Shown: positions 41,806-63,781 of the stretch, in pieces
Numbering within the stretch: the stretch's first letter is position 1
Layout: each line of letters begins with the position of its first letter
Source of the DNA: Mesostigma viride
Lineage: Eukaryota > Streptophyta > Mesostigmatophyceae > Mesostigmatales > Mesostigmataceae
Direction of reading: 5' to 3'
Length of the DNA stretch: 64,000 nt
Assembly: GCA_009746045.1 (NCBI GenBank)
Contig: RPFO01000333.1
Coordinates: 112,501-176,500 of the forward strand
Notes under the pieces: generated by a model
What the model was told of the DNA's origin: nothing
Database searches by the model: none
The model's input: the letters and a program-made list of their open reading frames with translations, nothing else
Made by a program: the position numbers and the translations under genes

Positions 41806-43325
41806 ATGGCGGATTTGAACTGTAGCATAGATGATTTTTTACAGGAGGGGGCGATCATCTGCCTGGTACCGGGGAGGAGGATGCAAAAGAGTTTGCCAGA
41901 AACTTCGCAGCTACAGTAGGCAAAATATCAGCAGACACACCACTTTATTCAGGATCCAGTAACACTGCCATAGCTAGCGCGTTGGAGCTCTTATCTATAC
42001 TCGGCAGGCATTCTGCATCGGCTGTCCTAGCGGATGAGGTATTCAGTTTTATCAGCAAAGTTCTGCCAGCCGGTAATTCTCTGCCAGAAAGTGTAAAAGA
42101 AGCCAAGAAAGTCATGAAGGGTTTGGGGTTAGATATGCGTGTATATGATGCGTGCCCCTGTGAAAAATATATATACAAAACAAAAGAAGTCCAGACCTGC
42201 CCTGTATGTAAAAACAATAGATTTGAACAATACGAAGATAGAAATGGAGAGACAGTAACAACAAGAAGGGCCCATCGCCAAGTTAGATACTTCCCTCTTA
42301 TAAATCGTTTCCGCGGATTTTTTAGGATACCCGAGATGTCCAAGGCATTACGATATGCTGGAGAAACTGAAAACAAACAAGATGAAGAAGACCCAAATCG
42401 GTAAGTCCACGGAATTAAAGGTAAAAGGTGTCCTTGTCAATTTCTTTTCTGCACGTGCTTTTTGGCTGGCTGTATACGGTTCACCCAACTCATGCTGCAT
42501 ATGTTGTGGTGATTTTGCTGCATATTATAACATTCGGTTGTGCCGCCCGCACTTCGGCCGTCCCGTTTACCCACCTCCCTGTTGTATAATTGCATGCAGA
42601 TTGCCGAGCGATGCTGCACGTCAAGAGAATGTTCCCTCAGTTTCGGCTTGACCCACGCTTCCTTTTTTTAGCGCTTTGTTTTGATGGAGTATGTCCTAGG
42701 TGCTACATGGACCAGCACTCCAGCTGGCCGTGTTTCTGTGCAATCTTGAACCTGCCTGAATGGGTCTTCATTAACAAACATTTCTGCCCAATGGTGCTTC
42801 TGGTGGGAGGGAACAAGAAAGGTAAGGCCCCAAAGAATATGCACATTTTTCTTGACCTGATTGTAGATGAGCTGGTGAAGATGTGGGATGGGTTTTACAT
42901 TTGTGATGTGTTGGATGATGATGAGCATGGTGGGCTCCACCCGGCAAAGATTCAAGCACTGCTGTTGTTTACTGTTCACGACTACCCGGGGTTTGGTAAG
43001 ATGGTAAATATGCCAGACTCCGGGTACGACGGCTGCCTTGTGCACGGCCCTGCTTGGAAGGGCACCTATGTTTCCAAAGGGCGCATTGTTTTTCTTGGGC
43101 ATGAGACCTTGCTGCCAGCTGATGACCCCCGTCGCGGTGGCAACGACAAGGAGGCGCCGCCAGACATGACGATGCAAACCTATGTGGAGCACTGCAGAAA
43201 GCACGGCCGGCAGCCGGAGCCCTTTTGCAGGCTGCCGTACTGGCCTCAACTCCTCCAACGGCACCTGATCGACGAGTTCCACCTGGGGGCGAACAACCTC
43301 TTGCGAGTCGCCAACTCCACTAGCG
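41806..43325 (+). pseudogene. CACTA (En/Spm) transposase, TNP2-like, partial
   Basis: Exon A (about 41847-42400, acceptor TTTTTTACAG, donor GTAAGT) encodes LLSILGRHSASAVLADEVF, then VKEAKKVMKGLGLDMRVYDA and a zinc-like CPCEKYIYKTKEVQTCPVC. After VRYFPLINRFRGFFRIPEMS comes exon B (about 42600-43325). It holds LDPRFLFLALCFDGVCPRCY (expected first catalytic Asp), FLDLIVDELVKMWDGF, LLLFTVHDYPGFGKMV and GRIVFLGHETLLPADDPRR. This order matches the Transposase_21/TNP2 family that moves CACTA elements. The two exons do not join in frame as I read the splice sites. The protein stops at a donor (GTAAGT at 43326) with no downstream exon before the 44,351 insertion, so the gene is truncated or split. No CACTA termini were identified. 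Confidence 0.78.
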
Positions 43326-44350
43326 GTAAGTGCGGTGCTGTCTAGTGTTGTGTCACTAGTGTTTGTCGCTGTTTTTTTCCTTTTCAACATTTTGTATTTA
43401 AGGAGAATTCCATTAGGATTTATTACATGCTGTGGTTCAGTGTGTGTATTAACCCTTAGTCGGGAGGACCATTTTTGGCACTTTCAGACCCCTGAAAATG
43501 AGAAAAATCATAACTCACAGGCCACAACTCCAAATGCCCCCAACCAAGATGCTAGGAGTATCTACACTTCGAGGGCTTTCAGAATATGCAATAATACCAC
43601 GGGTTTATCGAAGCATTTGGATGATAGCGCCAGTCAAACTTGGCCAAAAGACGATCTTTTTTCCCCAAGGAAAAGTGAACCCCCACCTAACTTCCCAGGG
43701 AGGGTATGGAACCTCAACAACAACATTGGACAACTTAGTTGGATAGTCCAATGGTGCTTTCCTTGGGTCAGACCACCCGGATAACCCATTAGACCTATAT
43801 AAGGTGCTCATATATGTGTGTGGGTTACGCGCGCGTAAACAGCCATCTAAGACATGCAATACAAGAATGCATTATAGCAAGCTATAAAAGATTGCCAAAG
43901 GTGCTGGAATACAAACATGCTGCATACCTGCACTAACGGAATGATGTGCTCCAAAGAAATGCCATAAACTGGTCACTTTCAGGGCTAATACCCCTCTTTA
44001 CAGCAGGCATGGAGGCTTGCTGAAAGGTGCACTAAAAAGCTCGTCAAATATAATGCATGGGAGACGTATTCCGCTGCAAAGGACACGCAAACACGTTGCC
44101 ATACCTGGCTCGTTCACGTCCTGCCCGGATTCCACTGGCCGGGACCCTCATATCTCACACATACCATTGCTTTACAGGCATAGGTCGCCATAGCCGCATC
44201 ATGCATGCATCCTTTATGATTACAAGGTTGATGCTCCGTTCAAATATTACCTATAAACGCGTCTGCATTCCCAGCAAACGCATCAGCGGACATCCGGTAC
44301 CAAATCTGGATGCTTGGGCTGGCGCAGACTGCCCGGCCACGAGGATAAAA
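43326..44350. other. Intron or flank of the CACTA gene; no gene recognised
   Basis: Begins with a good donor. TTAACCCTTAGTCGGGAGGA at 43449 looks like one end of a further TTAA element, but no partner end was found. The last bases (GAGGATAAAA) adjoin the giant element. Confidence 0.4.
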
Positions 44351-44422
44351 GGGTGGTCCCACGCGGAATGGGGTCATTTTTGGCGCATTTTGCAAGAAAA
44401 AAACGCTAGTTTCAATCGTCCG
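44351..44422 (+). repeat. Left terminal inverted repeat of the 19.4-kb element
   Basis: Pairs with 63719-63781. It begins GGGTGGTCCCACGCGGAATG and contains a run of seven A flanked by CAAG and CGCTAG. An insertion of about 9 bases relative to the right copy follows base 24. Confidence 0.88.
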
Positions 44423-44644
44423 ATATCTTTTTTTCGCGCGAATTTGGCGTCCGATCGCGTATTTTCGAGCTAATTTGGTGTCATAATGCTTAATTCATGT
44501 CAATTTGAGCGTACATTCCACATCGAGAGGCTTGAAAGTTAGTAATTCATGTAAATTTTACGTGGAGAGACTCGACATCATCCTAACCTTTGTATTAACC
44601 ATAGGACGAGCATTGCCAGCGCATGTCCAAGTGCTAACTTTCCC

Positions 44645-47600
44645 TCACACTTTCGAGGGCCTCTTCCGTAATTTCGCTTCCGCGATCTGCTGTTCCGTTT
44701 TCGAGTTCCTCCTCTTCTTATCGATCTCCTTTGCAGGCGCCCAGACTTCCACATCCTTCCAGCTCTTGCCATCCGTCAGCTTTACCACCTTCATCGCGTA
44801 GTCCAGCGGCATCCACCACAACTTGTTCTTCAACTTCCCTCCCTTCTCCCCCTCAGCGAAAAACTTAAATGCGACGTCCCTCCACTTGGTGTCGTATCCA
44901 GACACCTGCCCATAAAGCATGACGTCTTCTAGCTTGGCATACATTGGCGTAGCCGTATCCTTGTTCCCTGCTTGCATAATGGCTAAAGTCCACCCATCAC
45001 ACCAAAAGGCCTCTGGTGCTCCGAACCCCATTTCCCCGTCCATAAGTCTCATTTCCAACGTGGGCTTGTCATCATCCTCATCGCCCGCCTGACTGTCTTC
45101 CGCCCCCTTAGGCTCCTCCCGTCCGGAAGTGTCAGCATGTACAGCCGCTGGTCCGAAGCCCACCGCCACATTAGCCAAGCGAAGTAACTGCTCCACATCC
45201 TCATTACCTGCGAGCAAACCGATCATGCCATCAACGCATGACTAAAATCGAGTTAGTAGAAATCGGACTGCCAACCGTGAAAAATCAAAACACTCTACAT
45301 ACCAGAATTCACTCGCAGATTTTTTCTTACCCTTTTTGGCCTTTTCCTTCGACCTCTGCTCGCAGGTAGACCCCGTCTGGGGGTGGGGGGCAGGCGCCGG
45401 GGCGGGTTTGGCGGGCTCGGCAACCTTGGCAGTCTTCGCGGTCTTGGGTAACTTCTTGGAAGCAACGCGCTCCTTTCCCCCGTCCTCCTCCTCTCCGCCG
45501 CCATCCTCCTCCTCCTTCTCCTCCTCATCGTCCGAATCTGAAAGCACAACTGCTTTTCGACGCCGTTTCTGAGGCAGGGCAGGCTTGGGAGGCTTCCCCA
45601 CCTTGGCCGATTTCTTGGAAGCAACGTGCTCCGCAGCCTTCCCACCCTTGGCGGATTTCTTGGTAGCAACGTGCTGCTCCTCCTCCTCCTCCTCCTCCTC
45701 CTCCCCCTCCTCCTCCTCAGCATCGTCGTCCTCCTCCTCCTCCTCCTCCTCAGCATCGTCGTCCGAATCAGCCACTGCCACAACTGGCTTACGAAGCTGC
45801 TTCTTCGGTACCTGAGAAATGGCCAGAGTCGGCGGGGGAACCCGAAGCTGCTTCTTCGGTACCTGAGAACTGGGCAGAGGCGCCGGGGTGGGCAGAGTCG
45901 CCGGGGGAACCCGAAGCTGCTTCTTCGGAACCTGAAAAACGGGCTGCGACGCGGCAGGCTTGGAAGGCCCACCTCCATCATCCTCAACAAGTGACACGAC
46001 TGCCCGTCGAGTCACTTGAGAAGCGGGCTTCTTCGCCGCAGGCGGATCCGAATCACCTTCAGGCCCCGTCCTCTGTTCGGCCTGCTGCGTTCTGACCTCG
46101 ACGGGGGTCTCTCCGCGGTTAGACCCTCCTGCCGGACCTCCATCCCCTCCATCCCCTCCCTCCAACAACTGTTGGTCATCCCTCTCCACCACGGCGGACG
46201 ATCCCCCAGCTTCGTGGGAAGCTTTTCGCTTCTTCGCCCTTCCGAGCCTAGGCCCCCCATCACCTTCCCCCTGTTCAAGCCGCTCCCACAATTCACTCCC
46301 TTTCCCGATCCTTTCCACTATCTCTTGAAACCCCTTAATCTCCGTCTTGGTACCAAACACGATCACCATCGGTTCGAACCTGGAGAAAAAGTCGTGGGCG
46401 CAAGCCTTCAGCACATTATCGTACATCCCGCCCGGTTGGGGAATGGACGAAGCTGTCGGGCAAGGACCGAACGCCCACCACCCTCTCTGAAAGTTACTCC
46501 ACTTATCACCCCAAATGTTCGCCAAGTTCAGCAGGCTCAGGCACGGAAGGGACCTGCCCAAGGGAAAGGGGCGGGCTGAAGCTGAGGCAACCTCGCCTGC
46601 CACCTGCTTGACGAGCGACTTGTCATCATCATCACCGTCTAGCCTGACAGCAAAACCAGACCCGGCGACGGCCCCAGTCCACACTCTGCCACTCATACTT
46701 CACGTCCCACTCCTCCTCCTCCTTCGCCTCCTCCTCCTTCTTCGCCTCCGTCTCCTTCCCCTTCCCCTTCCCCTTCCCCTTCTCCAGCCCCTTCACCGGC
46801 CCCTTCATCGCCGCCTCCTTCACCCCCCTTCGAGTAATCCAACTTTTGGAGCGTACTTCCTGAACGCTTCCGGAGCCAAAAGTGCCAAACCCACCGTCTT
46901 GTCCTCGCTCTCTTTTAGCAGAATCTCCTGAAAGTCGATCTTGCCATTACTGAGATCCTTTCTCGGAATCCTCAGATGTGCGGCGTGTTTTTTGGCTTTA
47001 AGAAGGTAGGCGATGTTCCTCGTTATGATGACGGCCACATCCCAAAATTCCCGGTATCTGGCCACAATCTCCTTCCTGCCGACCGGCCGAGCGAGAGGAT
47101 GGAGATTGAAGACGAGTTCGAAAATATGAGACGCCACAAACTCCTTGCCCTTTGCGTCCTTGCATTGCGCTTCCAGCGTCTCATCCTCCTTGAATCTGGC
47201 GCAAATGGTCAGCCGCAGGCACTCCAGCACATCCTTGGCGATCTCCACCAACTTGGTGAGCTTTTCCGGTCCAACCTGGCAGCTCATGATGCAATCGATC
47301 ACGGCGTCCATCATAGGAAGGCTGGCCAAGTTCCTGAAAGAAGTCCAAGAGACCTTCTGGCCTTTCTTCTCCCCCTCTGCATTGCGAATTTGCACCTTTG
47401 CATCATCACCTCCTCAGGCGCGGGTTTCGTTGAGGCAGGATCATCAGTCTGCTCCTGTGTCAGACGGAGAAACGTGTTGGCCAGCGTGCGACTGTAAGCG
47501 GAATGCACTGAAGCAATGCTGTGGGCCGGCTTTTTCTTTCCTTCTGCTTCCTCCTCGTGTACATCCACCGCTGCCGGCTCCACATTCCCTTCCCTTCCCC

Positions 47601-50600
47601 CCGCTTGCCGCATAGCCGGGAGGATGTACGTGAGCAGATTGGTGTAGTGGCCATCCGCAATATAGTGGCCCTTCCCACGCGTGACTTTGCCGTATAGATA
47701 TAGCTTGTTGTAGTTCCACACGTCAAGCAACGCCTGGCCCAGCGTACGATCCGCCACGGCTAAGTCCTCCGAATTCGCCCCCTTGGCGATGTCGAACAGC
47801 TTCTCCAGCTTGCCGGTCAGCACCGCCTGCGACATCAATTAACATCGAGCGAGCAACGACAAAACTCAGTCATAAAAGGCGAGGGGTATAGCTGCGGATA
47901 GACCCTAACAAAATTCGAAAAAGAAACGGCCGACAATACGCAACGAAAATTCCAACAAAAAAAAGGAGAGGGTCTAGCTGCAGCGAGACCCTCGCAAAAA
48001 ACTTGAAGCGCACACAAAAAACAACCACGAAAATTCCGAGGGTCTACCCGCAGCTAGACCCTGCCAAAATAGATAGCTTACATCTTCTTTTGCCTTAGGT
48101 AGATTTCGCAGCTCACTCCACGACGGGAGCAGGTCGCCACCCTTGAGAAGAATGACGTTCGTACCCATGTAACCACCACGGAATTTCCGCAACAGGTCCT
48201 GGAAGGCGTGCTCCGCCTCCTTAGGAGTATTTGCGAAATTGGACTCCGCCCCACCCTCGCACATCATTGCCCGAACCTCTCCCCACCCGCCATCCGGCCC
48301 CCTGAGAAACGACTTTAACCCCTTAAAGTAGTGGTTCCCATCCACCACCGCGTACCGGAGAACCAGATACGGTACCGGTACCCGTTCCTCAAAAAATTTC
48401 GGATCGTAGGACTTCATCGCAGTATTGCACAGCAGGTTGAAAACTTGCCGACTGCCCTCGATCTCCTGAGGCAAAACTGCTTCCACCTCGTCCACCCTGG
48501 CGTAGGTACGCCACTCAAGTCCTCTCGCGAGGAAAGAGGTGGTGGACTCCGTGTTAAGCCACACGTCGACTTCAGTATCCGAAAGGGGCCGGAAGTACCT
48601 GGACCCCACATCCTCCGCGTCAATCTTGGCGCCGTGGTGAATGCTTCAGCCACTTGACGAAATCCGGCATGCACAAGATTTGCTTGTCGAACAGGTCAGG
48701 TTGAGATTCGGCAAGCGCCTGGAAAGGGAACTGCCAGACCGGGACAACAACCTTGAAGTGCAAGGCGTTGTCCCGCGCATTGAGGAGAATGCGGCCGTTC
48801 TCCTTAATGGTTTCAAGGTTTAAACGCCGCTGCCTCAAAGCCTCTGGCAAAATAAGCGCGTTGACCGTCTGGATCCGCATACTGAAACATCCGGTCTGCT
48901 TAAAATCGGCCGGCCGAATCCAACGCGTTTCCCTGAGAGTATTGGCCTTCCGGATGTTCTGGTCCCTGACCTCCTTGTTCGAGTCGACCTTTTTCGAAGG
49001 CTTCCAGCTTTCAATGATAGGGTCGGTGTCCGGGTTCCCACTGCTCGTGAGCACCCCCTCCTTAAAAAGCTTGTTGAGTGACCGGAGCAGCTCAAGAAAG
49101 GGGGAGAACTCGGGCCAGTTTGGCAGGTCATCGACGTCCGCCATCCGCCTACTCGAGCAGTACTTGAGCATATCCTTCACCAGCGCGAACACGGCGTCAT
49201 GACCAGGTAACTTCTTCTCCACCGTGGCGTCTTCGTCCCCCCCGTCATCCTGAAGTAAAAAATCGAAAAGGACCGCAGGATTTGCTCAAGTCAGTAATCT
49301 TTAGGCCGACCACGACATCCTGTTCAGGGACGAACAAAGTTCTGTTGGAATAGTACCTTACTGACACTAAACACCAAGTCCCGCAGCCGGTCAGCGTCTA
49401 CCCGCAGCGAGAGGTCTAAATTTTCACAACAATCGTACCTGTCCAGTTTTCTGCTGCTTCTTGGCCTCCTTAGCCTTCTCCTTCTCCGCCTTCTTCGCCT
49501 CCTTCTCCGCCGCCTTCGCCTCCGCGTTCTTCTTACTGTTGGCCTTTGCCACCGCATTCAGCGCCCTTTTTCCCTCAGCGGCCCGACGACGAAAATCAGC
49601 CTTCATGAATTTCTCGATCTTGTCAACCTTTGCCTCTGAGTACTCCTTAGGCTGCCACTTGAAATTCTTGGTGGCTTTCGACTTCACCAGATTTGCGAAT
49701 TCATATGCCAATTCACTCTTAAAGGTAGCGTCACCCAACACCTCCGTATCGAAATCGGCATCGACTTCCGCCTCAAGTCGTGTCAGGTACTTGCGAAACT
49801 CGGACCCCGCAGGTCCCTCCGAATCGACGCCATCGGGCGGAGACTTAAGCATGATCAGGCCAACAGCAATAATATGATCCTTCGCAACCTTCTTGCGGGA
49901 ATCCAGCTTTTCCCTTTCATGCTCAGTCAATGGAGGCTTCGCCGCCTTCCCCCCCGCAGTACCCCCAGCGACAGCCCCCGCCTGCATGACAAAAAAAAAC
50001 GAACAAGAAGGGACTTGACCTCAGTTCGATTGTTGCACCATCGTCTCTCTGCGGAGATACCCCTCAGCACGAAAAAAATCACACGAACTCGCGGCGGATG
50101 AACGTACCTGCACAGCCACTTCTCCCTCAGCGTCTCCCCCATCCTCATCTCCTCCAGCGTTTTCATCCCCCCCATCCTCATCTCCTCCAGCGTTTTCTTC
50201 CTCTCCGGCAGCGCCTGCTGAGGCCAAACCCCCCGCCTGTCAACACCGAATACGACAGCTCATTGGAAATCAAAATTAGTCGATATTTGTATATTTCGCA
50301 TAATGCGCTCACTAAAACTTCAGGCGAAATGCAGACATCCGGATATCGTTTAATGCTTACCATTTCCATCTCGAGTCCAGACCAAATACCAGCACTGTCA
50401 ACAGCCATCGCCGCAGCCGCCCCCTGAAAAAAGACAACAGATTGGTTGGGGGCACCGTTGAAATTAGCCGAACATGTCAGTCTCAATAAAAGGGTGAGGG
50501 TCTACCTGCAGCTAGACCCCATGTAAGATGCTCGTGGAAACTCGACGGACAAGCACCCACCTTATCAACCAAGTCTGACAAATTAGGTAAATCCTCCGAT

Positions 50601-53160
50601 ACGTCCCCTGGCATGGAGCCCCCCTGCATGATATGACAGGACAAACCATGAAGGTTGGTCAGCATATAGAGCCCTATTCAGGGAATGGAAACAACCCAAA
50701 TCGATAAACGATATCGGCAAGTTAACGTACCGAAACGTAGAACTTCCACCTCCTCAAAATCTTCCCCAAAGGCCATATCGGCACTTGATGGGCTCTCTCC
50801 TTTTCCAGTTGCCGCCTCAATTCCGCCTCGAAGAACAACTCGAGGGACTGCCAATGGCCTCCCGCCTCTAAATCAGACCACTCCGTGTCTGTCTTGGTTC
50901 GGATACTCTGGAGACAATCAACCAACGAGATTTGATCCAACCATTCCTGGACGACTTCCCGGTATGGCTTATATGTCTGAATAACATGGAAGTCCTCCCG
51001 GTGCCGGAAACTTTGGATCACCTGTCCAGCCCAATCCAAAAAGAAAGCGACCGCTTCCCGCGAAAGGCTGGCGTCCGGGCTGACAAGAAAGTCAGTCCGC
51101 CACTTAACAAAAGATTGCAGTAAGTGGTCTCTTGCCATGTCCAAATGCGCGATCACTTCATGTGCGCGCTCCTCCAATCCTCCTACGTCATTCATTCTTC
51201 CCGGCACAATTACGATATAGTCACTGTTGGACGTGTCAACAAATCCTTGCCTGACAATATCAAACACTTCATCTTCCGACAGTGAAGCCCTCGAATCCGC
51301 TCTCATATCTCCAGTCATGAGTTTAAAGAGCTGATGCAACGCAGTGGTTTTCAAGGTTTCCATATAGGAAGCCTCGATGCATGTGAAGCCAATGTGGACC
51401 TCGAACTTTTCAACCTCATCAAAGAGCGTCGACCATATTAAAGCACGACGGGGAAAGTAACGTCCGACATCCTCCTTCAGATTAAGGATGCACGACTGCG
51501 CGATCTTCAAAACCTCATACATGTCGTCACCAACGACCCTCTTCCCATGAATGGCTCGCTGTGTGGCTTCGAACAATGCAAGACGGCCCAGGCGGTCGTT
51601 CTTCCAAATTATGTCTGCCGACTCCGGACGGTCCACGACGACACCGGACTTCTCTGCAAACGCTATCTCGGCCGAAAGAAAGCGGATCAAGCCTCTCAAG
51701 CCCTTTTCGGCTTTACGACTCACCCCAGACTCAGACTCAGCCTGAGCCAGGTACTGTTTCAGAATGGCCAGCGTGTCGGGCTGCAGACAACAAGAGTAAA
51801 AAAAAGGCCACACATCGTCGTCGTCAACAACCTTAACTCCTAGGTCAACGTCTCTCCGCAGCTAGACCCTTACGATCAATGTATGACATAAAATCCCACC
51901 CTTTCTACGATACACACACGCCGTTCAAGCCATCTGAAAAATGTACGTCTCACATTAATAAACATACCTGATAATCGACTGAAAATCCTTCGTGAAGAAG
52001 GGGTGGGCTCCCGTTCTCGTCCTTCTCCCCCTCAACTGCCTTCGCAGCCTCCTCCTCCTTCCTCGCAGCCTCCTCCTCCATCTTCCTCGCGGCCTCTTCC
52101 GCCTTCATCCTCTCCTGTCGCATCTGCAAAAAAAGAGCGGCCTCCTCCGCAAGAATTCCCTTCGCTGCCGCCTCCGTCTTCTTCTTCGCCTCCTCCTTCT
52201 GCTTCGCCACCAGGATCCTGTGCTCCTTCTCCTGGGCAGCCTTTTTCTCCTTGTACTCCCTCTCCTCCTCCTCCCTCTCCGCCTTCTCCAGCCTCTCCTT
52301 CTCCTCCCTCTCCACCCTCTCCCTCTCCGCCTTCTCGATGGCCTCCCTCTCCGCCTTCTCCTTCTCCTTGTCCTTCTTGTCGAGAGCCGCGTATTCGTCA
52401 GCAAAGCTTGCGGCCATTGCTAACAAATCGGACAACCGCTTCTGACGCGACTCCCGAACCGGCGATTCCGGGTCTTCAGGCCTCCCGTTAGTCTGATCGC
52501 GCTCGTCCTCCTCAACAAGCTCACTGATAGACTTCCTCAGCTTCCTGAGCTCTTTGGTGCGGTCGTCTTCCTCTACCCACTCGGCCGCAGGCTTACGCTT
52601 AGAACTGGAATGCTTGGGGGACGGCGAGCGGGACGCAGCAGCGGGGGACTTGGGTGGCGGCGAGCGGGACTTGGGGGAAGCAGAGCGGGACGGCGAGCGG
52701 GTCGCAGTTGCGGGGTTCTTGGTTGACGGCGAGGGGGACTTGCGAGAAGGAGAGCGGGACGCGGTAGCGGGGGGAACTTTGGGCGGAGAGGGGGACTTGC
52801 GGTTCGGCGAACGGGTCGCAGTTGCGGGGGACTTGGGGGACTTGCGGGGCGGCGAGCGGGACGCAGTAGCTCCGGCCGACTTGGGGGGCGGCGATGGAGA
52901 CTTACGGGGCGGAGAGCGGGACGGAGCGCGAGACGCAGCAGCGAGAGAGGTGGGGGGTATAATTCTGTCCAACTCGCTGGGGGGCAAGTTGGACTTGGAG
53001 GGCGAGGGGGACTCGGTGGGGGGGACCTCGCAAGATCTTTTACGGGACCGAACTGCAACGAAGGAAACTCCTCCGTTGCCGTTCGGTCCGGCGAGGTGTT
53101 CGCCGTCATCTTGGGTGAAACGGGAGTGGCCTTGACAGAATCGGAATAGGAGGACGACAT
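44645..53160 (-). CDS. Large multi-exon coding region of unknown function (element cargo)
   Basis: No family recognised. Exons read on the minus strand: 53160-51968, 51780-50731, 50623-50561, 50423-50361, 50236-50108, 49981-49439, 49249-48082, 47826 to about 46690, about 46690-45300, and about 45230-44645. GT-AG sites are good and phases are mostly 0. The N-terminus has SR-type repeats (SRSPPRKSPSPP) and a long charged helix (AEREEEEREYKEKKAAQEKE). Exon 2 is a 350-aa mainly helical domain. Short acidic exons and a Lys/Ala-rich helix follow. The last parts hold SQVPKKQLRVPP repeats and acidic runs, then KKSAKGGK-like basic patches (nuclear signals likely). Frames break near 53040, 48650, 47410, 46826 (a G6 run) and 46690. 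It could be one gene or two to three consecutive genes. Confidence 0.55.
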
Positions 53161-53296
53161 CTGCAGAACAATATCAAAAAAGCAAGTTTCACAAATGTCA
53201 TTCAGAATCTGAATCGCCGGCAGAAAAACGATGGGGAGGGTCTCGCTGCAGCTAGACCCTTTCGTGGATTCTAAAAGGGACATTTAGTTTAATGCA

Positions 53297-53702
53297 AAAC
53301 TTTGGCGTCTCGCTGCAGCGAGACCCTCACTTCAAGCAAAAACAAATCATTTTTAGGGTGAGCGTAAACAAGCAACCTCCCATCATGCAAACATAAAAAA
53401 GTATACATTCCTTGGGGTCTCGCTGCAGCGAGACCCTAACGTCAAACAAAAACAAATAATTTTTAGGGTGAGCGAAGAAAGCCCCCTCCCATCTTGCAAA
53501 CATTAAAAGTCGACATTCGTAGGGGTCTCGCTGCAGCGAGACCCTAACACCGATACAAAAACAAATCATTTTAAGGGTGAGAAAAGAAAGACCCCCCATC
53601 ATGAAAACATGAAAAATTGACATTCCTTGGGGTCTCGCTGCAGCGAGACCCTAACGTCAATACAAAAACAAAATTCCGAGGGTCTACCCGCAGCGAGACC
53701 CT
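53297..53702. repeat. 108-bp tandem repeat carrying the CTGCAG palindrome
   Basis: Three to four tandem units of about 108 bases, each starting with the palindrome and continuing with AAACAAATCATTTTTAGGG and a TCCCATCATGCAAACAT block. Lies upstream of the minus-strand gene start, where its promoter should be. Confidence 0.88.
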
Positions 53703-54383
53703 TACGACCACGTATAAATACATGTGGGGGGGGAAGCTACGTATAAATACATGTGGGGGGGGATGCTATGTATAAATGCATGTGGGGGGGTGCTGGCATT
53801 AATAATTAAATGTGGGGGGTGATGGCATGAATAAATAAATGTGGGGGGGTGCTGCCATGAATAAAAGAATGTGGGGGTGTGATGGCATGAATAAATGAAT
53901 GTTGGGGGGTGCTGGCATTAATAATTAAATGTGGGGGGGTGATGGCATGAATAAATAAATGTGGGGGGGTGCTGCCATGAATAAAAGAATGTGGGGGTGT
54001 GATGGCATGAATAAATAAATGTGGGGGGTGCTGCCATGAATAAAAGAATGTGGGGGGGTGCTGCCATGAATAAAAGAATGTGGGGGTGTGATGGCATGAA
54101 TAAATGAATGTTGGGGGGTGCTGGCATTAATAATTAAATGTGGGGGGGTGATGGCATGAATAAATAAATGTGGGGGGGTGCTGCCATGAATAAAAGAATG
54201 TGGGGGTGTGATGGCATGAATAAATGAATGTTGGGGGGTGCTGGCATTAATAATTAAATGTGGGGGGGTGATGGCATGAATAAATAAATGTGGGGGTGTG
54301 CTGCCATGAATAAAAGAATGTGGGGGGGTGATGGCATTAATAATTAAATGTGGGGGGATGATGGCATGAATAAATAAATGATA
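53703..54383. repeat. Minisatellite array I (G-rich on plus strand)
   Basis: About 22 units of 29-31 bases, mixing GTGATGGCATGAATAAATAA, GTGCTGCCATGAATAAAAGA and GTGCTGGCATTAATAATTAA, each followed by ATGTGGGGGG. Higher-order repetition of three to four unit types is visible. Confidence 0.95.
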
Positions 54384-56526
54384 CGTAGCATCACCCCCCA
54401 CATGTATTGATACGTAGCATCACCCCCCCACGTGTATTAATACGTAGCATCCCCCCCCACATGTATTGATACGTAGCAGCACCCCCCCACATGTATTGAT
54501 ACGTAGCAGCACCCCCCCACATGTATTGATACGTAGCAGCACCCCCCCACATGTATTGATACGTAGCATCCCCCCACACATGTATTGATACGTAGCAGCA
54601 CCCCCCCACATGTATTGATACGTAGCAGCACCCCCCACATGTATTGATACGTAGCAGCACCCCCCCACATGTATTGATACGTAGCAGCACCCCCCCACAT
54701 GTATTGATACGTAGCAGCACCCCCCCACGTGTATTGATACGTAGCATCCCCCCCCACATGTATTGATACGTAGCAGCACCCCCCACATGTATTGATACGT
54801 AGCAGCACCCCCCACATGTATTGATACGTAGCAGCACCCCCCACATGTATTGATACGTAGCAGCACCCCCCACATGTATTGATACGTAGCAGCACCCCCC
54901 ACGTGTATTGATACGTAGCAGCACCCCCCACGTGTATTGATACGTAGCAGCACCCCCCACATGTATTGATACGTAGCAGCACCCCCCCACATGTATTGAT
55001 ACGTAGCAGCACCCCCCCACATGTATTGATACGTAGCATCCCCCCCCACATGTATTGATACGTAGCAGCACCCCCCCACATGTATTGATACGTAGCAGCA
55101 CCCCCCACATGTATTGATACGTAGCAGCACCCCCCCACGTGTATTGATACGTAGCAGCACCCCCCCACATGTATTGATACGTAGCATCCCCCCCCACATG
55201 TATTGATACGTAGCAGCACCCCCCCACATGTATTGATACGTAGCAGCACCCCCCCACATGTATTGATACGTAGCAGCACCCCCCACATGTATTGATACGT
55301 AGCAGCACCCCCCCACGTGTATTGATACGTAGCAGCACCCCCCACGTGTATTGATACGTAGCAGCACCCCCCACATGTATTGATACGTAGCAGCACCCCC
55401 CCACATGTATTGATACGTAGCAGCACCCCCCCACATGTATTGATACGTAGCATCCCCCCACACATGTATTGATACGTAGCAGCACCCCCCCACATGTATT
55501 GACACGTAGCAGCACCCCCCCACATGTATTGATACGTAGCAGCACCCCCCACATGTATTGATACGTAGCAGCACCCCCCCACGTGTATTGATACGTAGCA
55601 GCACCCCCCACATGTATTGATACGTAGCATCCCCCCCACACATGTATTGATACGTAGCAGCACCCCCCCACATGTATTGATACGTAGCAGCACCCCCCCA
55701 CATGTATTGATACGTAGCAGCACCCCCCCACATGTATTGATACGTAGCAGCACCCCCCCACGTGTATTGATACGTAGCAGCACCCCCCCACGTGTATTGA
55801 TACGTAGCAGCACCCCCCCACATGTATTGATACGTAGCAGCACCCCCCACATGTATTGATACGTAGCAGCACCCCCCCACATGTATTGATACGTAGCATC
55901 CCCCCCACACATGTATTGATACGTAGCAGCACCCCCCCACATGTATTGATACGTAGCAGCACCCCCCACATGTATTGATACGTAGCAGCACCCCCCCACA
56001 TGTATTGATACGTAGCAGCACCCCCCCACGTGTATTGATACGTAGCAGCACCCCCCCACATGTATTGATACGTAGCAGCACCCCCCCACATGTATTGATA
56101 CGTAGCAGCACCCCCCCACATGTATTGATACGTAGCAGCACCCCCCACGTGTATTGATACGTAGCAGCACCCCCCCACATGTATTGATACGTAGCAGCAC
56201 CCCCCCACATGTATTGATACGTAGCAGCACCCCCCCACATGTATTGATACGTAGCAGCACCCCCCCACATGTATTGATACGTAGCAGCACCCCCCCACGT
56301 GTATTGATACGTAGCAGCACCCCCCACATGTATTGATACGTAGCAGCACCCCCCCACATGTATTGATACGTAGCAGCACCCCCCACATGTATTGATACGT
56401 AGCAGCACCCCCCACGTGTATTGATACGTAGCAGCACCCCCCCACATGTATTGATACGTAGCAGCACCCCCCACATGTATTGATACGTAGCAGCACCCCC
56501 CCACATGTATTGATACGTAGCAGCAC
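54384..56526. repeat. Minisatellite array II (C-rich on plus strand)
   Basis: About 74 units of 28-29 bases: ACATGTATTGATACGTAGCA followed by GCACCCCCC, with ACGTG and GCATC variants. The reverse complement (GGGGGGTGCTGC...ATGT) resembles array I, so the two arrays are related and inverted relative to each other. It opens long false reading frames in all minus-strand frames. Confidence 0.97.
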
Positions 56527-57249
56527 AATTTTAGTCAGCCTACCATCCACGTTGCGGCAAAAGATCACCTTTTTTTGTGTTTCGGCAAAATGAAGATTTC
56601 TTGCAAACTATCGTTATGCAGGCAGGTAGCAACGTCCGATGTTATAATCCGGCAGGTAGCATGCAAACGTCGAAACGATATGAAGGGGAAAAAAAGCATC
56701 AAACAGGAGCACCGATTAGAAACGCAGCAAATGCAGTATGTGCACATCTACACCTATAACCTAACCAGACCAAAGGCATAGCAAACATGGAAAGGGTGAC
56801 CCAAGTGAAAGCCTAGCACCACCATGATCGACATGTGCGAGACCAAGAAACGCTCCATGGCAACTAGACTAAAGGGATGGATGCCAGATGTGGATTAGGA
56901 TCGGCTTAGCTGACTCTACCGAGATGTCTGCAGGGTTTAGCTAGCAACGAAAAGAAGGAAGCCAGACATTTTTATCACTCTTGCTGCAACATAGAGTTTC
57001 TTGCGATGGCAGCAAGGACATGTCTTCGCCCAGCTGGCTAACTGTGTCGTCGGCGTGCATGCGCTGTTTAGTTGCCGTTTTTGATAGAACAATTTTAGTC
57101 AGCCTACCATCCAGGATGCGGCAAAAGCTCACCTTTTTTTCGTTGTGCGGCGAAAGCAGACCGATTTCCTTGTAAACTTCCGGCACCAGGCAGGTATCAA
57201 CGTAGGATTTTATAATCCAGCAGGTAGCATGCAAACGTCGAAACGATAT
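56526..57249. repeat. Direct repeat of about 160 bp
   Basis: 56525-56684 and 57088-57249 are related copies, both running from CAATTTTAGTCAGCCTACCA to GTAGCATGCAAACGTCGAAA. The sequence between has no recognisable gene. Confidence 0.88.
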
Positions 57250-58345
57250 GGCAGCTCGTATCAGCTATGGGGTCTCTCTGCGGCTGCGCTTCTTTTTCGA
57301 TGGGCGATGGGACGGTCGCAATTCGCAAAACGGACGCGGCGTCACAGGGCTGAACGGTATTGAAAAAATTGGAAACGTGGCATCCTCGTTCCTCCCCACG
57401 GAACTGAAAACTGGAAGCGCGGCGCTGGTGCAAAAGCTCGATCCCATCTTTTGGAACCAAGCTAGCGGATTGGACGACATCCAATATGCCGTCACCCGTG
57501 CTTGTGGCCGCAGGTATAAAAAGAGACGACCTCCAGCCCATTTACCTGGGAACATTCGGATGTTTGGCTGACATCGTTACCATGCGTCAATGTACAATGA
57601 GGTTCTGGGTTCGATTCCTGGTGTGGTCATGGAAATAAATTTTTTTCTGCACATCTACTGAAATCAGTCATAGCACCAAACAATCACGCTGCAGCGAGAC
57701 GCTATAGCCCTGGAGCCCGCTGATAAACCTGACATCCGGTACGTCTTACTATCATAGATTGCCGAACTATATAATAATAATAGTCTATACCACTTTTTCT
57801 TGTAAATGATTTACTAAATAATGATTCTATATACTTTAACATACCATATTATTAAAGTATGTGGAATTTAACCATGCTATTCACAATATATTATAAAATC
57901 TTTTGCAAAATATACTGTAATTAGTATATATATTTTCTGATAAACAATTTTATCAATGCTACTGTGTTATTTTTGTTATTCTCGCCATGCAGGTATCTGA
58001 GTGTTCTGGGAGAACTAATAAGAGAATGAGCCGCGAAGGTGAGGAAAACCTGAAATCTTTTCGTCCTTATTGGGGTCTCTCTGCAGCTAGACCATTTATA
58101 ACCACAAGCAATAGCTTAAATTCAAGGGTCTCGCTGCAGCTAGACCCTCTTTATGGTTGCTATAAAATTAATGAATCAGAAGTCTGTGATTTAACAATCG
58201 CACGCCGCAATGAAGGGTCTAGCTGCAGCGAGACCCCAATCTTGGTCGGGGTATGCTAAGTTCACCACATCAGGTAATCTTTTCGTCTAACGGAAAAAGC
58301 CCCTCTAAGGGTCTAGCTGCAGCTAGACCCCAATCGTGGTAAAAA
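57250..58345. other. Upstream region of the plus-strand gene
   Basis: A 107-codon frame at 57248-57571 has no recognisable motif. 57740-57960 is AT-rich. Four CTGCAG palindromes (58072-58331) lead up to the start region of the next gene, the last only 15 bases before its first ATG. Confidence 0.45.
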
Positions 58346-61300
58346 ATGATACACTTTCGAACTTTGTCTGTAATTGTCGCTTTTCCCAACGATACTCGAT
58401 TTGCATGGATTTCGTTGTGCCGGTCGTCATGGCATGCAGCACGCGAACGGGTGGGAGTTTTCGCCCTTGCGTCCGGTCGTCCAGGATTCAGTGCAATTAA
58501 GTTGAACACCGGGACGAAGCAGTCAACTGGCGCAAAAAGGGTTTTCGGAGATGAGAACCAGAATCCAGCGCAGCCTGAAGCCAAGGAAGTCAAGCGGCCG
58601 GGAGAATACTCGAAATCAAAGAGGGTTATTGGGGAATATTTCGCTGACCAGGCGTTTGAAGCGGCTCAGGCGATGACAAAACCCGAGGGGCGGGGGCCGG
58701 CTTTCGACCAGATGATTGCTGGCTTTAACTCTAGGGCCGCTGAACTAGGTCACGGGAAGTATCATGAGGAGGCGAAAAAGCTTTACAATCAGGAGCGGAT
58801 GGCAGAACTGAACAGGTTCTGGGTGGCTCGGATTAACGGCTTTTTTGATGGTCTGACCAAAAGCGACGCAGACAGAGACGTCAGGATGGTGCTGATGTCC
58901 ACGCTTTACTGTGGTGACGACTTGGAGAAGGAGTTTTCGGCCGCGGAGTTGGAGAACCTGACGGGGATGGACGCCAAGAAGATTCGCGGAATTCGCGCGA
59001 TACGAAGGCAGCAGAAGTTGGACTACCTCAGACACGCGCAGGCTCGCAAGGGGCGCCCTTTGCCGCAATTCGTGATTGACGCGATAGTGGACGCGTGGAT
59101 GCACGATGATGAGTCGCGCGCCTCCTCCCAGATGAAGGATGTCAAGCGCACTTACAGCAGGGAGGGTCGTGGCAATCACGGGGTGCTCGTCGCCGTTGAG
59201 GGAGCGCGCTATTACATGACCTCCAAGGAGGACATGTACAATCACTTTCTCGAAAAGCATGCGTACTGGAACAAAAGGAGTAACCAGTATGATAAGGACG
59301 TGGGCATTCACGTGGGCTACACGACCTTCTGCAAATACGCGCCCGATTGCATCAAGGGCAAGTGGAAGGAGAGGAACCTGTGCGCGTGTGAGAAGCACGT
59401 CACCATGCAGTCGGCCATGGGGCGTGGACCAAGCACTCCAATGCGAACCACGGCAAGAACTGCAAGTGTGGCGCGGAGTGTGCGGGATGCTCCAAGTACA
59501 GAGAGCCGGACGGTACTTGCGGAATGTGGAAAGCCATTCACTCGACGGACTGGATCAAGCACTTTCACTGCCCGGTGTCCGCCGAGACTGACGGCAGGGA
59601 TAACGGGCTGCGTGAAGGGGGCGGAATGGGCGGGGGGATGGAAGAGGGGGAGGGGGAAGATGAATGGCGGGGACGGGACCTGGAAGACCTCGACATTTCT
59701 GAGAGGCTGGTGGAGGACGAAGATGGGGTGCCGAGGACGGAGAGGGTTCACCGCATACTGAAGATGGCGTGTGTGGAGGGGTTCTGTCCTGAGGAATCAT
59801 GCGGCATCCATAATAACTGGGTGCAGTGTGATCGGGACAAGAATTCCACGGAGATTCTGAATTGGTTCAAGTTCGAGATGGTGGAGCAGACTGTGACCCG
59901 ACGGGTGAATGTGAGTTGGTTTCGATTTTATTTCTCCGTTAATATGTTGTTGACTTTTTTTTTTGTGACCTATAGCTGCAGCGAGACCCTTTGTGAGTTG
60001 CAGTTATCTTATCGAAATGCGATTTTATTGCAAATCGAAACTGTCTGCGGACCTTTGCGAAACAGGGCGAGACCGATGGCAGGGCGGCGAAGAAGGTGAA
60101 GCGGCCCGAGCAAGTCCAAATGAGGTCCACCCCAGCTGAGCTGCGGGACGAGATTCTTAAGATGTGGGACAAGTTCACCGTGCACTGCTTTACGGCCTGG
60201 TCGCAGGCGGATACAATCAAGGATCGGGAGAAGAATCTGAGAGAGGGGGACGTGCTCGTGCACGGCGACTGGGCCGAGAACTACGAGAACAGCAGCTACG
60301 TCCAACTGCAGTCGCAGTACTTCCACAAGCGCAGCCACATCCTGATGCCCATGATCGTGCGTTATCGGCTCAACGGCGAGCTGGAAAAGCGCGTCTTCTT
60401 TTTCCTGGGGGATTCCAGTATCAAGCGGGGCGAGCGCGCACTCGTATACGCTCTTCGCAAGATTCTGGAAACCCTGCGGGTAGAAGTAGGGGTAGAGGTG
60501 CGAAACCTGTACATGTGCTCGGACAACTGCGCGGTGCAGTTTAAGTCCAGGTACGTGATTAACCAGATTAACGGTCTGCTCATGGGGGATCCCGACCTGC
60601 AGGCCTTTGAGTTCCACTACATGGGGGAGCAGCATGGGAAGGGGGAGGTGGATGGTCAAGGAGCGAAGTGCAAGTGCGTCTTGAGGGAAATGCAGAGGAT
60701 TCCCGAAAACCAGCACATACTTGAGACCCACCAGCTAGTCGCCTACTTGAACCAGAACTGGCAGGGCGGCAAGACATCGAGCAGGGAGTCGGCCCGCGCG
60801 CGGGCCGAGAACGTCACTCGCCACTTCTTCCTTTTACCCCCGGTACGGAATTGTGTGTTATTTCAGGTTTTAAGACGTCAACTGCCGCTGTTCTATAAAA
60901 ATTCAAACCCAATAAAGGTATCTCTGCAGAGAGACCCTATATACTGTCAATGGGTTGCTTTTCTTTTAGGTATGAAATTTCGCTTGTTCTATCGGTATGA
61001 AGGGGTCTCTCTGCAGCTATACCCTGTGTCGAATTTCGATCACTTGATATCTTGTCGTACGTTGTTATTATGATTCGAATGGGGTCTCTCTGCAGCTATA
61101 CCCTGTGTCGAATTTCGATCACTTAATATCTTGTCGTACGTTGTTATTATGATTCGAATGGGGTCTCTCTGCAGCTATACCCTGTGTCGAATTTTGATCA
61201 CTTGATGTCTTGTCGTTATTTTTTTTTTTGTAAGGGGTCTCTCTGCAGCTATACCCTGTTTTATTGATTTTTGGTCAATTTTGCTAACTTGAACGGTATT

Positions 61301-62073
61301 CTTTTTGCCCTAACTATTTGATGACAGGACGTCGAGTCCGGCCGACGCGCGGAGGTGGAGGAGGTGCCTGGCATCAAGAAGGCGCATTGGTGGCGACTGG
61401 ACAAGTCCGACCCTGGCCTTTTGATGATTAGGCGCTATTCCTGCTACTGTCCGCCCTGTTTGGCTGGGCGGTTTGAGGGATGTCTAAGCGAGTGGTCGTT
61501 TATCATCGAGTTCAATGATGCAGGAAGCTCGATGAAAACTGTCCGTTTGCTGCCACCGAGCCAGCCCAACCCTCCGGTTCGCATGGTGACGCGGGGGGAG
61601 CAGCTGAAGGACAAGCGGGAGGCGATGGGCCGGCAGATGAGACTCCACGACTATGTGGCAGTTCCATCGGACAAGGACACGGATCACGATCCCATCCACC
61701 CGTTCTGGTTGGCTGAGGTTGTAAGCGAAGCCGGGCCGATCGTGTTAGACGAGAACTTCGAGAGGTGGGTCGAGGGCCGGAACGGACGGGAGAAGGAGCT
61801 GTTCCTCGCCGGGAACGGCATTCTTCCCGTTCGGATTTGGAAGCGGGATAAGCATGACCCCTGCATTTCACGCTCAACGTTGAGGATTGGCCACCGTCAC
61901 GCCAGCCCGAGCTTGTGAATTGCTATCTCTGCGTCGCTCCGGCTCTCCGTCTAGAAGCACGCGTGCGCAGCGACGGAATGTGTGCCGACATCAGGATGAG
62001 CAAGGAGCTCGACAAGTGGCTTACTGCGCTGGTGATCAAGGATGAAGCCCCGGAGGGGCCGGCACCGACTTAA
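58346..62073 (+). CDS. Candidate transposase of the 19.4-kb element
   Basis: Three exons: 58346-59910 (donor GTGAGT), 60066-60842 (donor GTACGG) and 61328-62073. The N-terminal part (about 100-340) is helical: KRVIGEYFADQAFEAAQAMT, then ARKGRPLPQFVIDAIVDAWM. A cysteine/histidine cluster follows: CACEKH, CKCGAECAGCSKYREPDGTC, FHCP. Exon 2 has an RNase-H-like pattern: VLVHGDWAENYE (first Asp), NLYMCSDNCAVQFKS (second Asp) and YMGEQHGKGEVDGQGAKCKC (third acidic). Exon 3 has CYCPPCLAGRFEGC and a C-terminal domain to 62073. The same motif order occurs in uncharacterised DDE-type transposases of animals; a Sola-type relationship is possible but not shown. Frame breaks near 59400 and 61860 (in a C run). 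The start is uncertain: ATG 58346 or a later one near KRVFGDENQNP. Confidence 0.6.
61002..61258. repeat. 79-bp intronic tandem repeat with the CTGCAG palindrome
   Basis: Three and a half units, each beginning GGGGTCTCTCTGCAGCTATA, inside the second intron of the candidate transposase. Unit spacing is 79, 79 and about 75 bases. Confidence 0.9.
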
Positions 62074-62360
62074 ACAAGAAATTGGGGTCTCGCTGCGGGT
62101 AGACGACGCCCTAGTTTCGGCTTGTATTATATCTTTAGAGTGGGGCTTCAGTAGGGTGTAAAAAGGTGGCCGCATATATTGTATATATTTTTCGAGATCT
62201 TTCTGAGGTCAAGTTTAAGGGTAGTTGATAATTTTTTGCGGCCTTCAATTAACAGTTATTTTTTACTGCAACATAATTTTATGCTGTATATTTAAATAAT
62301 GATAAGGATTTCGATATTTTTTTGCACAATCTATTCGACATTTGTTTCTGCATGTCGAGA

Positions 62361-62574
62361 ATTTATTGCTCCACCCCCACAAAAAAATCGTTCCGGAACT
62401 GTTCGAAGCGAATAGCACTGACAGGATTCGAACCCGGGTCCACCTTAATGTTCGGAGTGAGGTAGGCCAGCCATCATGTTCCGCACTCAAATCTGGCTCG
62501 GGTCCGATCCCTCCCATTGCTCTTCGCTTCGAACAGCTCCGGAACAAGTTAGGTGTGGGGTTGGAGCAATAAAT
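62361..62574. mobile_element. Small foldback element with a tRNA-like centre
   Basis: Left arm 62361-62411 (ATTTATTGCTCCACCCCCAC... GTTCCGGAACTGTTCGAAGC) is the imperfect reverse complement of right arm 62523-62574. The roughly 110-bp centre, read on the minus strand, has GGGTTCGAATCC (B-box) and ATGGCTGGCC (A-box-like), but no 7-bp acceptor stem. MITE-like structure; not a functional tRNA as far as I can fold it. Confidence 0.65.
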
Positions 62575-62894
62575 ACTTATTTGCCGGGCGCAGTTGTCAT
62601 TCCGCCTAGTACAATTGCGTCACTAGTACAATTTTTGTCTGGGTACGGTACGAACCAATAACGCAATATTTAGTATCTAATCGCCGCTGCTCTTGCTGAA
62701 TTTTATCCGGAAGCTGAAAAAGGTGTCCGGTGAAGCGAATACTAGTGACTGGTGGTCGTGCCCTTCCATTACTCCTTATCGACAAATTTTGGGTTCTACC
62801 TGCAGTTATAACCCTTGCGCGTCTGGCTGTCGGGGTCACCAATTTCCTGTCGATTGCAAGCAGCCAACCTTGCCGAAATTTAACACTGTCACAA

Positions 62895-63332
62895 ATGGAG
62901 CAGAGCAATATTTTCGGTTCTCAGCATACCTATGTGATGGTCGACAAAAATGAGCACGCTGCAAACATCAGAATTGATGTAGAGTTGCTCGGACCTTCTG
63001 CACAGTGGGGTGCAGGTGTCATTGCGTTCGGCAATGGCATGATCGATCTGGTGCCACCCGATTCAGATTTGAACCCTGCTTACCAATGCGTGCCTGACAA
63101 TCAGGCGAGAGTGGTGGTGGAGAGCACGGAAATTCCGGGCTCTCCCAATGTATCAATGATGCGCCTGAGGGCCGAGGCCCAGCAGGAGTTCCTGGCTGCT
63201 GCGGAGAACGGCGGGGCCAAGTGGAACACCAAAATGTATACAGGCGAGCCTCCCAACTACAGGGGAGACCAGTACCAGGGAGTGTACTCCTTCGGCGATT
63301 TTGACATCGACGGATGGGGCACCTTTTTCTAG
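62895..63332 (+). CDS. 145-aa protein of unknown function
   Basis: A single uninterrupted exon starting MEQSNIFGSQHTYVMVDKNE and ending DFDIDGWGTFF. It is acidic, with no membrane segment or signal peptide and no domain I recognise. The chosen ATG lies 81 bases after a CTGCAG palindrome (62791-62814); an upstream in-frame ATG (62730) would translate through that palindrome, so I prefer the later one. AATAAA at 63421 may be its polyadenylation signal. It lies between the candidate transposase and the right terminal repeat, same strand, so it is probably an accessory gene of the element. Confidence 0.65.
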   Translation: MEQSNIFGSQHTYVMVDKNEHAANIRIDVELLGPSAQWGAGVIAFGNGMIDLVPPDSDLNPAYQCVPDNQARVVVESTEIPGSPNVSMMRLRAEAQQEFLAAAENGGAKWNTKMYTGEPPNYRGDQYQGVYSFGDFDIDGWGTFF

Positions 63333-63718
63333 GCGCAATGCCTAAGTTGTCAAATACTCCGACAATGTCAAAATTGCGAATGATAAAATTACGGACATGT
63401 GCACATATATGTACTGATTCAATAAAAACTTTCGGCAATTTTGTTCCCGGCATTGATAATCAATAGCTGCTAGCAAGCCAAGGACTTCAAAAGTGGCAAT
63501 AGATCGATGTAGGTCGTCGATAAAACTTGTCTAGTCGTCATATTTCGGTCGCAAAATTCGTGCGTGGCCTGCAGGCATCGGACAAAGTGCACGCAACAGC
63601 AGGAGTCGGTTGAGTTCGAAGCACGGCAGACACAAAATTTCGGCGCAAAGTCCGTCGGGCGAAAAATTCGCTCGGCTGCCAAATTTTCGGCAAGAATTTC
63701 GGCGCAATGTCCGGTTTT
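63333..63718. other. Right subterminal region of the 19.4-kb element
   Basis: After the poly(A)-like site the sequence is non-coding. Repeated TTTCGGCGCAA and AATTTCGGC motifs at 63640-63712 resemble subterminal repeats of DNA transposons. Confidence 0.45.
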
Positions 63719-63781
63719 CGGACGATTGAAATTAGCGTTTTTTTCTTGCAAAAATCTACCCCATTCCGCGTGGGACCACCC
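63719..63781 (-). repeat. Right terminal inverted repeat of the 19.4-kb element
   Basis: Reverse complement of the left end, ending CCGCGTGGGACCACCC. The open frames across both ends share the residues GWSHAEWG and FLQEKNA/ILQEKNA only because the repeats are related. Confidence 0.88.

Follow-up and report, generated by a model that had tools for sequence, protein, structure and literature searches.

The window, a 64,000-nucleotide stretch of Mesostigma viride DNA (contig RPFO01000333.1, positions 112,501 to 176,500), contains a 19.4-kb DNA transposon with terminal inverted repeats (TIRs) at positions 44351-63781, and this transposon carries, mainly in its non-coding DNA, many copies of a 24-bp palindrome, RGGGTCTMNCTG joined to CAGNKAGACCCY. 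Each site consists of two 12-bp half-sites, R-GGGTCT-MN-CTG, placed head to head. In the material examined, the palindromes are specific to the family of the window element (family 1), are shared with its derivatives, are constrained, avoid exons, have half-sites that vary independently, and give way to different motifs in related families. We consider it probable, with considerable room for doubt, that they are dispersed binding sites for a protein encoded by the element, probably a dimer, which diverges from family to family. Binding by a dimer is most likely because the site is made of two half-sites in head-to-head arrangement. We infer the binding of a protein, its origin in the element, its identity and its effect from these patterns. 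The initial annotation had offered three readings of the palindromes (the site of an element-encoded DNA-binding protein, a recombination or replication signal, and an RNA hairpin in introns), and among them the element-encoded DNA-binding protein is favoured by the element specificity, the sharing with derivatives, the constraint and the difference between related families.

Number, places and specificity of the palindromes

Sites were counted with the pattern GGGTCTNNCTGCAGNNAGACCC, which has 18 fixed positions; sites with ≤3 mismatches are called good and those with 4-5 mismatches weak. The window element has 23 good sites, 20 of them with ≤2 mismatches, and 28 sites when the five weaker ones are included, and the reversed consensus gave 0 matches at ≤5 mismatches in the window. 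With the 20-mer of the initial annotation and ≤3 mismatches, 17 matches were obtained in the window, compared with a mean of 0.00 over 100 shuffles. These counts bear out the approximately 26 CTGCAG-centred palindromes that had been annotated in the giant element. The annotated restriction to the element also stands, but the sites begin before 47883, at 46105 and with a weak one at 45352; likewise, the absence of sites elsewhere in the window holds at ≤2 mismatches (0 in the other 44.6 kb), but one look-alike with 3 mismatches is found at 28888. A purine precedes the half-site in 42 of 42 half-sites (21 family-1 sites).

Gene models were drawn by eye, with nine inferred GT-AG introns whose ends are accurate to about 20 bases. 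Comparison with these models agrees with the annotated location of the sites in introns and just ahead of start codons on either strand (Table 1). Seven of the nine introns hold a site: L-I1, L-I3, L-I7 and R-I2 have good ones, L-I5, L-I6 and R-I1 have only weak ones, and no palindrome site was found in L-I2 and L-I4. Of the six palindromes upstream of the left gene, four are within a 107-bp tandem repeat (53302-53672), and of the five in intron R-I2, four belong to a 79-bp tandem repeat. Presumed exons make up 65% of the element minus its minisatellite and contain only 1/23 good sites, or 2/28 with the weak ones (p=1e-9 for exon avoidance; 1/11 and p=2e-4 when arrays are collapsed). The sole good exonic palindrome, at 46105-46126, is translated in an open frame, and in family 2 a degenerate site with 4 mismatches is at a similar distance from the left end of the element.

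In the 440-Mb genome searched, the 20-mer at ≤3 mismatches had 3294 matches compared with 5 for the reversed pattern, and the density in the element is higher than genome-wide, rather than equal to it. Locations were checked for the places listed among these matches, which were 52 places forming 19 clusters. Eleven of these clusters are ≤30 kb from a listed family-1 transposase exon and 0 are that close to a listed family-2 one; another four are within family-1 copies that were aligned, three are ≤25 kb from a listed exact TIR (by position alone), and one is in a relic that shares 79% identity with the window element. This relic holds one exact site and one with 1 mismatch, and its locus was listed owing to the exact site. 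All 19 listed clusters are in or near family-1 copies. A virus-borne site was also considered and rejected: viral contigs gave 0 exact matches to one consensus, and no protein relative was found in them.

The location of sites upstream of three inferred gene starts (53160, 58346 and 62895) is also what would be expected if they were ordinary promoter or operator sites through which a transcription factor of the host drives the genes of the element. However, the 102.5 kb of non-element DNA scanned contained no site at ≤2 mismatches and a single one with 3, sites are present in introns and in derivatives without the transposase gene, and related families of the same genome have different motifs. 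We regard control by such a host factor as quite improbable.

Constraint and independence of the two arms

For the test of constraint, eight other copies, some of them partial, were aligned to the window element. Changed positions numbered 9/2672 in the 23 good sites, compared with 143/6856 in flanks, 397/20790 in other non-coding DNA and 737/56048 in exons. Both arrays were then excluded, because the copies had been found through exact sites in the 53.3-kb array. The 14 non-array sites had 7/1650 changed positions compared with 527/27096 in non-coding DNA, which is 4.6 times less (Fisher p 3e-7; random 22-bp blocks, 0.0045; near-site blocks, 0.0175), and they also changed less than exons (7/1650 versus 737/55938, p 5e-4); these p-values are rough, because sites were treated as independent and the copies are related. 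In the five weak sites, 13/660 positions were changed, and 12 of these 13 reflect two differences of the window copy at 57681, found in six other copies.

This constraint bears on whether the palindromes are functionless hitchhikers, either remnants of ancient tandem repeats or a palindromic micro-insert that spreads itself. Some sites were multiplied through tandem duplication, as such an origin would suggest. However, the sites diverge less than both non-coding DNA and exons, they avoid exons, they have not spread into the flanking DNA scanned, and their places match across families even though the sequence differs, and we find neutral hitchhiking very hard to credit.

The arm variants had been annotated as often staying complementary, which had been taken to suggest selection for symmetry, and this was not confirmed. 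Within the element, pairing is only at the level expected from composition: positions 7/16 pair in 12/28 sites versus 13.1 expected, positions 8/15 pair in 14/28 versus 11.1 expected (p 0.08), and both spacers match symmetrically in 8/28 sites versus 6.75 expected. The half-site spacers AG, CG, CT and AC combine freely, a pattern expected of a dimeric protein that tolerates a 2-bp spacer but not of an RNA stem under selection. When families 1 and 2 are compared, both arms differ in a like manner.

The independent variation of the two arms within the family speaks against an RNA hairpin, which was rejected as the principal explanation for families 1 and 2, neither of which has arm covariation. 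Such a hairpin would act in introns, for splicing or as a small-RNA precursor. The high proportion of introns with sites would fit it, and so would the protein record P0003, near-identical to family 3 (described below), which reads through a motif-bearing intron and would imply that this intron is transcribed if the record is transcript-derived. On the other side, sites are also located upstream of genes and in derivatives that lack these genes, and we give this explanation a minimal probability.

Ends, derivatives and related families

The TIRs of the window element are imperfect, about 73 bp long and open with GGGTGGTCCCACGCGGAATGGGG, and AAAA is present on either flank. The target site duplication (TSD) is taken to be 4 bp, because AAAA (window), CTAA (second full copy) and CCCC (586-bp derivative) flank three insertions, two of these three being homopolymers. 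Genome-wide, the terminal 23-mer with ≤2 mismatches had 236 and 230 matches, and the reversed control had 0. The exon at 60067-60840 looks like that of a DDE/D-type transposase, to judge from motifs read by eye (DWAEN, SDNC and EQHGKGEVDG). It has at least 122 copies at >90% identity, some of them partial, and at least 30 copies, including the window copy, are 100% identical over 253 residues; because of these identical exons, the activity of family 1 is considered recent. A PDB search with this exon gave no match, and a collection of 5.8 billion proteins gave two relatives, P0002 directly and P0003 via a two-row profile. This scarcity of relatives suggests that these large DDE elements form an orphan group. 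No description of such elements or palindromes was found among the titles and abstracts listed by the searches made in open-licence literature, and Rfam and tRNA scans of the window gave no match.

Palindromes are also shared with derivatives that have little else of the element. The C36 derivative, 10,314 bp long with family-1 ends, is similar to the window element over about 0.9 kb at one end, which takes in part of the last exon of the left gene, and over about 0.2 kb at the other. Besides palindromes, its interior matches the 19.4-kb element in one 164-bp stretch at 69.5% and in shorter bits, and its reading frames, which include many repeats, showed no transposase. At ≤3 mismatches this derivative has 22 sites, of which 21 are in arrays of 11 (2150-2748) and 10 (7120-7658, the first with 3 mismatches) and one is single (1554). 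TIR pairs with nearly the same spacing were observed among the matches listed on C80, C280 and C335 (positions only). Two elements of about 0.59 kb (586 and 588 bp) have 2 good sites each and are similar to the big element, besides palindromes, only over about 97-135 bp per end. Because the interiors are largely unrelated, what is common to the full, 10.3-kb and 0.59-kb elements is their ends and palindromes.

The retention of sites in derivatives would also be expected if they were accessory transposition sites, on which an element protein assembles both ends, as TnpA does at the subterminal repeats of Spm/En, with gene regulation secondary. The two 0.59-kb derivatives retain their sites at 133 and about 205 bp from the ends, the 10.3-kb derivative retains two arrays, and TnpA is reported to have roles in transposition, suppression and activation besides binding motif repeats. 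In contrast, the outermost good sites of the full element are 1.75 kb and about 0.97 kb from its ends and most are in introns and upstream regions in the middle of the element, and in the 10.3-kb derivative the arrays start about 2.05 and 2.7 kb inside and the single site is 1.45 kb inside. Because of these distances, the sites of the full and 10.3-kb elements are not subterminal. A primary role in transposition is in our judgement unlikely, while deserving to be kept in mind.

The reading of the palindromes as binding sites for a diverging protein is supported by two related families. Family 2, with a transposase exon 68% identical to that of family 1, has at least 28 copies among the 150 candidates scored out of 725, and is described from one copy (C1:2457890-2478263, 20,374 bp), which has a perfect 25-bp TIR, GGCCGGGCCCACTTCGAATGTTCCG, no clean 4-bp duplication, and exons in the same order and on the same strands as in family 1. 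Its palindrome is GGGTSRCKCTGCAGMGYSACCC, with the half-site GGGT[C/G/A][A/G]C[T/G]CTG, and had 505 matches genome-wide at ≤1 mismatch compared with 0 for the reversed control. At position 6, 42/42 family-1 half-sites have T and 51/54 family-2 half-sites have A or G, and a search for a family with C there gave 0 exact matches. The purine ahead of the half-site is kept in 50/54, and the arms are again independent (6/17 pairs in 10/34 sites versus 11.5 expected). The places of the sites match those of family 1, as judged by flanking exon matches and in part via sites with 2-4 mismatches: they are located ahead of the left gene (a 58-bp tandem array) and in its introns, in the upstream region and both introns of the right gene, after its stop, and before the small open reading frame (ORF). 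Among 39 listed family-2 motif clusters, 20 are ≤30 kb from a listed family-2 transposase and one is near a family-1 transposase, where a family-1 copy ends inside a family-2 element.

Family 3 is more distant (48% identity in the transposase exon), has at least 136 copies (136 scored of 717 candidates) and is known from parts of two copies, L035 and L036, of 10 kb each. In these parts no GGGT..CTGCAG..ACCC site was found at ≤2 mismatches, and two or three look-alikes with 4 mismatches, which belong to a tandem repeat ahead of the DDE region, are treated as chance. The motif here is GTTRCGCCGGCCGKCGTT: a 226-bp repeat located before the transposase gene has 6 copies, and an intron identified by eye downstream of the DDE exon has 1. 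This motif shows less symmetry, and a perfect palindrome, CGCCGGCCGGCG, is present in half of the six upstream copies. P0003, filed in EukProt under Prorocentrum lima, matches family 3 (L035, 7150-8050) with 98.8% identity over 84 residues, and its remainder, compared by eye, matches read-through of the following intron; host kinship, contamination and horizontal transfer are all compatible with this likeness.

A protein that changed together with the motif would be expected among the faster-diverging exons. Between families 1 and 2, identities over the main matching stretches are 65-71% for the DDE exon, 56-65% for the third right exon, 60-78% for the small ORF, 46-62% for the first right exon, and 48-65%, 45-66% and 54% for left exons 7, 8 and 10. 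The identity is only 33% in left exon 2 (over 121 residues), and in left exons 1 and 9 no more than scraps match (39-41% over 32-41 aa). Left exon 2 and exons 1 and 9 may be the best candidates for the co-diverging reader protein, since their divergence is faster than that of most other exons, whose longest stretches are 46-71% identical.

Possible role and comparison with known systems

According to the binding-site reading, a dimer would contact the two half-sites while tolerating differing 2-bp spacers in each half. Because the sites extend through the non-coding DNA (upstream regions and introns) and are multiplied via tandem duplication, the protein would cover all of the element and its derivatives but hardly any other DNA. 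The presence of sites across introns and upstream regions favours a role in marking or expressing the element as a whole, as with VANC, over pairing of the ends, as with TnpA. The likeliest purpose would be self-recognition, by which own copies are kept expressed and accessible to the transposase, as VANC proteins do for VANDAL elements. In related families the motif has changed, and presumably the protein together with it.

Several observations weigh against this reading. No Pfam family was above cut-off among the element exons scanned (for the left gene, five pieces, with exons 8 and 10 and small exons left out), and no DNA-binding domain was recognised; sub-threshold matches to BSP_II and Nrap_D6 were both weak. 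The sample for the constraint test came through an exact site and its copies are akin. Pair 3/20 is slightly over expectation (23/23 versus 21.1, p 0.044, in the ≤3-mismatch set), because of the single site 62792. The motifs of families 1 and 2 are alike, with 2 family-2 sites passing the family-1 pattern at ≤2 mismatches, and 18/39 listed family-2 clusters are near no listed transposase (150/725 candidates scored). A mutation-based search for lowered methylation near sites found none: C>T changes at CpG were 15/1511 within 100 bp versus 32/8950 beyond 300 bp, which is the wrong direction (19/2557 at 100-300 bp, 21/6058 at 300-800 bp and 11/2892 beyond). Other substitutions were likewise higher near sites, and the CpG observed/expected ratio was 0.89. 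With no drop in CpG transitions close to the sites and little depletion of CpG, any mark that exists would not have to be 5-methylcytosine.

VANDAL elements are Mutator-like elements (MULEs) with a 9-bp TSD, and CACTA elements have CACTA/G termini and a 3-bp TSD. The present element differs from both, with ends starting GGGTGG and a 4-bp TSD, no MULE domain in the exons scanned and no match to tnp2 (PF02992) among them. Sola-type DNA transposons have a 4-bp TSD and a DDD/E-type transposase, and are similar in these two respects, by description alone. Dispersed PstI palindromes containing CTGCAG are present in Neurospora mitochondrial DNA; these are organellar and of different sequence, whereas the sites here belong to a TIR element.

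The layout of the sites is similar to that of VANC targets in Arabidopsis VANDAL21 and VANDAL6, although by the features tested the element is neither VANDAL nor CACTA. According to Hosaka et al. (2017; PMC5735166), VANC21 binds YAGTATTAY, which is dense in non-coding VANDAL21 DNA and in tandem repeats, and is located in introns of VANC21 and VANB21 and upstream of VANA21 (also PMC10398659); both systems thus have a family-enriched, mainly non-coding motif, often in tandem repeats. The same authors report that VANC6 uses different motifs, also carried by the unrelated element AT9TSD1 (PMC5735166); related families here likewise have different motifs (family 3 being known from two partly read copies). 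In contrast to the 24-bp palindrome, the VANC21 motif as described there is short, non-palindromic and in a single orientation. For CACTA elements, the literature describes TNPA acting at subterminal repeats with motifs that diverge between families (PMC2613891), Tgmt* with CACTA ends and a three-base duplication (PMC2613891), and activation of Spm by TnpA, correlating with demethylation (Sasaki et al. 2023; PMC10398659). A repeated motif for an element-encoded DNA-binding protein (here predicted), its difference between families and the need of derivatives to keep cis sequences are common features, whereas CACTA repeats are subterminal and here only the 0.59-kb derivatives have sites near their ends.

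We tentatively suggest, as a possibility that falls short of even likelihood, that an undescribed superfamily of about 20-kb DDE transposons independently evolved self-recognition (anti-silencing), with a palindromic address for each family in promoters and introns and a matching dimeric reader encoded by the element, so that at least three address-reader pairs would coexist in one genome with non-autonomous derivatives riding along. To our knowledge, element proteins that recognise the motif of their own family throughout the element are known from very few transposons, mostly of plants, and the present element is apparently an independent case in a different element type. Reader-address co-evolution is directly testable, because at least 122 transposase copies and two sister families with different motifs coexist, and so is the choice between a role in anti-silencing and one in transposition.

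Table 1. Palindromes, genes and terminal repeats of the transposon, in window coordinates
Feature	Position	Strand	Location or remark
Left TIR	44351-44423	+	starts GGGTGGTCCCACGCGGAATGGGG, AAAA before
Left multi-exon gene	44640-53160	-	partly SP/SR- and K/E-rich; 7 introns inferred by eye
Weak site, 5 mismatches	45352-45373		presumed exon
Palindrome, sole good site within exon	46105-46126		motif scan and gene model
3 palindromes (47884, 47970, 48040)	47884-48061		intron L-I7 (about 47830-48085)
Weak site, 5 mismatches	49394-49415		intron L-I6
Weak site, 4 mismatches	50041-50062		intron L-I5
Palindrome	50498-50519		intron L-I3
Palindrome, 3 mismatches	51848-51869		intron L-I1
6 palindromes (53238, 53305, 53415, 53523, 53630, 53680)	53238-53701		upstream of left gene
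30-bp minisatellites	53710-56526		between divergent genes; outside motif system
Weak site, 5 mismatches (3 in other copies)	57681-57702		intergenic
4 palindromes (58073, 58126, 58215, 58309)	58073-58330		directly ahead of first ATG of right gene
Right gene	58346-62072	+	three exons; cysteine-rich stretch in first exon
Weak site, 4 mismatches	59968-59989		intron R-I1
Putative DDE/D-type transposase exon, right gene	60067-60840	+	motif reading
5 palindromes (60916, 61003, 61082, 61161, 61235)	60916-61256		intron R-I2
Third exon, right gene	61329-62072	+	ORF reading
Palindrome, 3 mismatches	62085-62106		directly past right-gene stop
Palindrome, 3 mismatches	62792-62813		upstream of small ORF R2
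Small ORF R2	62895-63332	+	conserved in family 2; palindrome directly upstream
Right TIR	63718-63781	-	AAAA after (4-bp TSD)

In the first exon of the right gene, the frame departs from that of copy C1b near 59430. The minisatellite consists of two opposed arrays with about 95 units in all; its counterpart in family 2 is similar but longer, and one family-1 copy is apparently inserted in such an array. The family-1 copy C2a (L013 and L014) contains two insertions (4053-5752 and 13842-15540) of an element of about 1.7 kb with ends CCCCTAAATGG and TTAA flanks; each holds GGGTGTAACTGCTGGTATACCC or a one-base variant, which is also present in the window at 28888-28909.

Elsewhere in the window, a fragment of a tnp2 (PF02992, CACTA-type) transposase is located directly left of the element (42590-43342), and a 400-bp inverted repeat (34523-34922 and 39696-40095) has arms 98% complementary and 4.8 kb apart. 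The ORF at 31524-34580 (1018 aa) has, by eye, the look of a reverse transcriptase whose N-terminal part is GIY-YIG-like, and has no Pfam match, and the ORF at 3939-4709 has an NBR1-type Ig-like domain (PF16158) and is probably a host gene.

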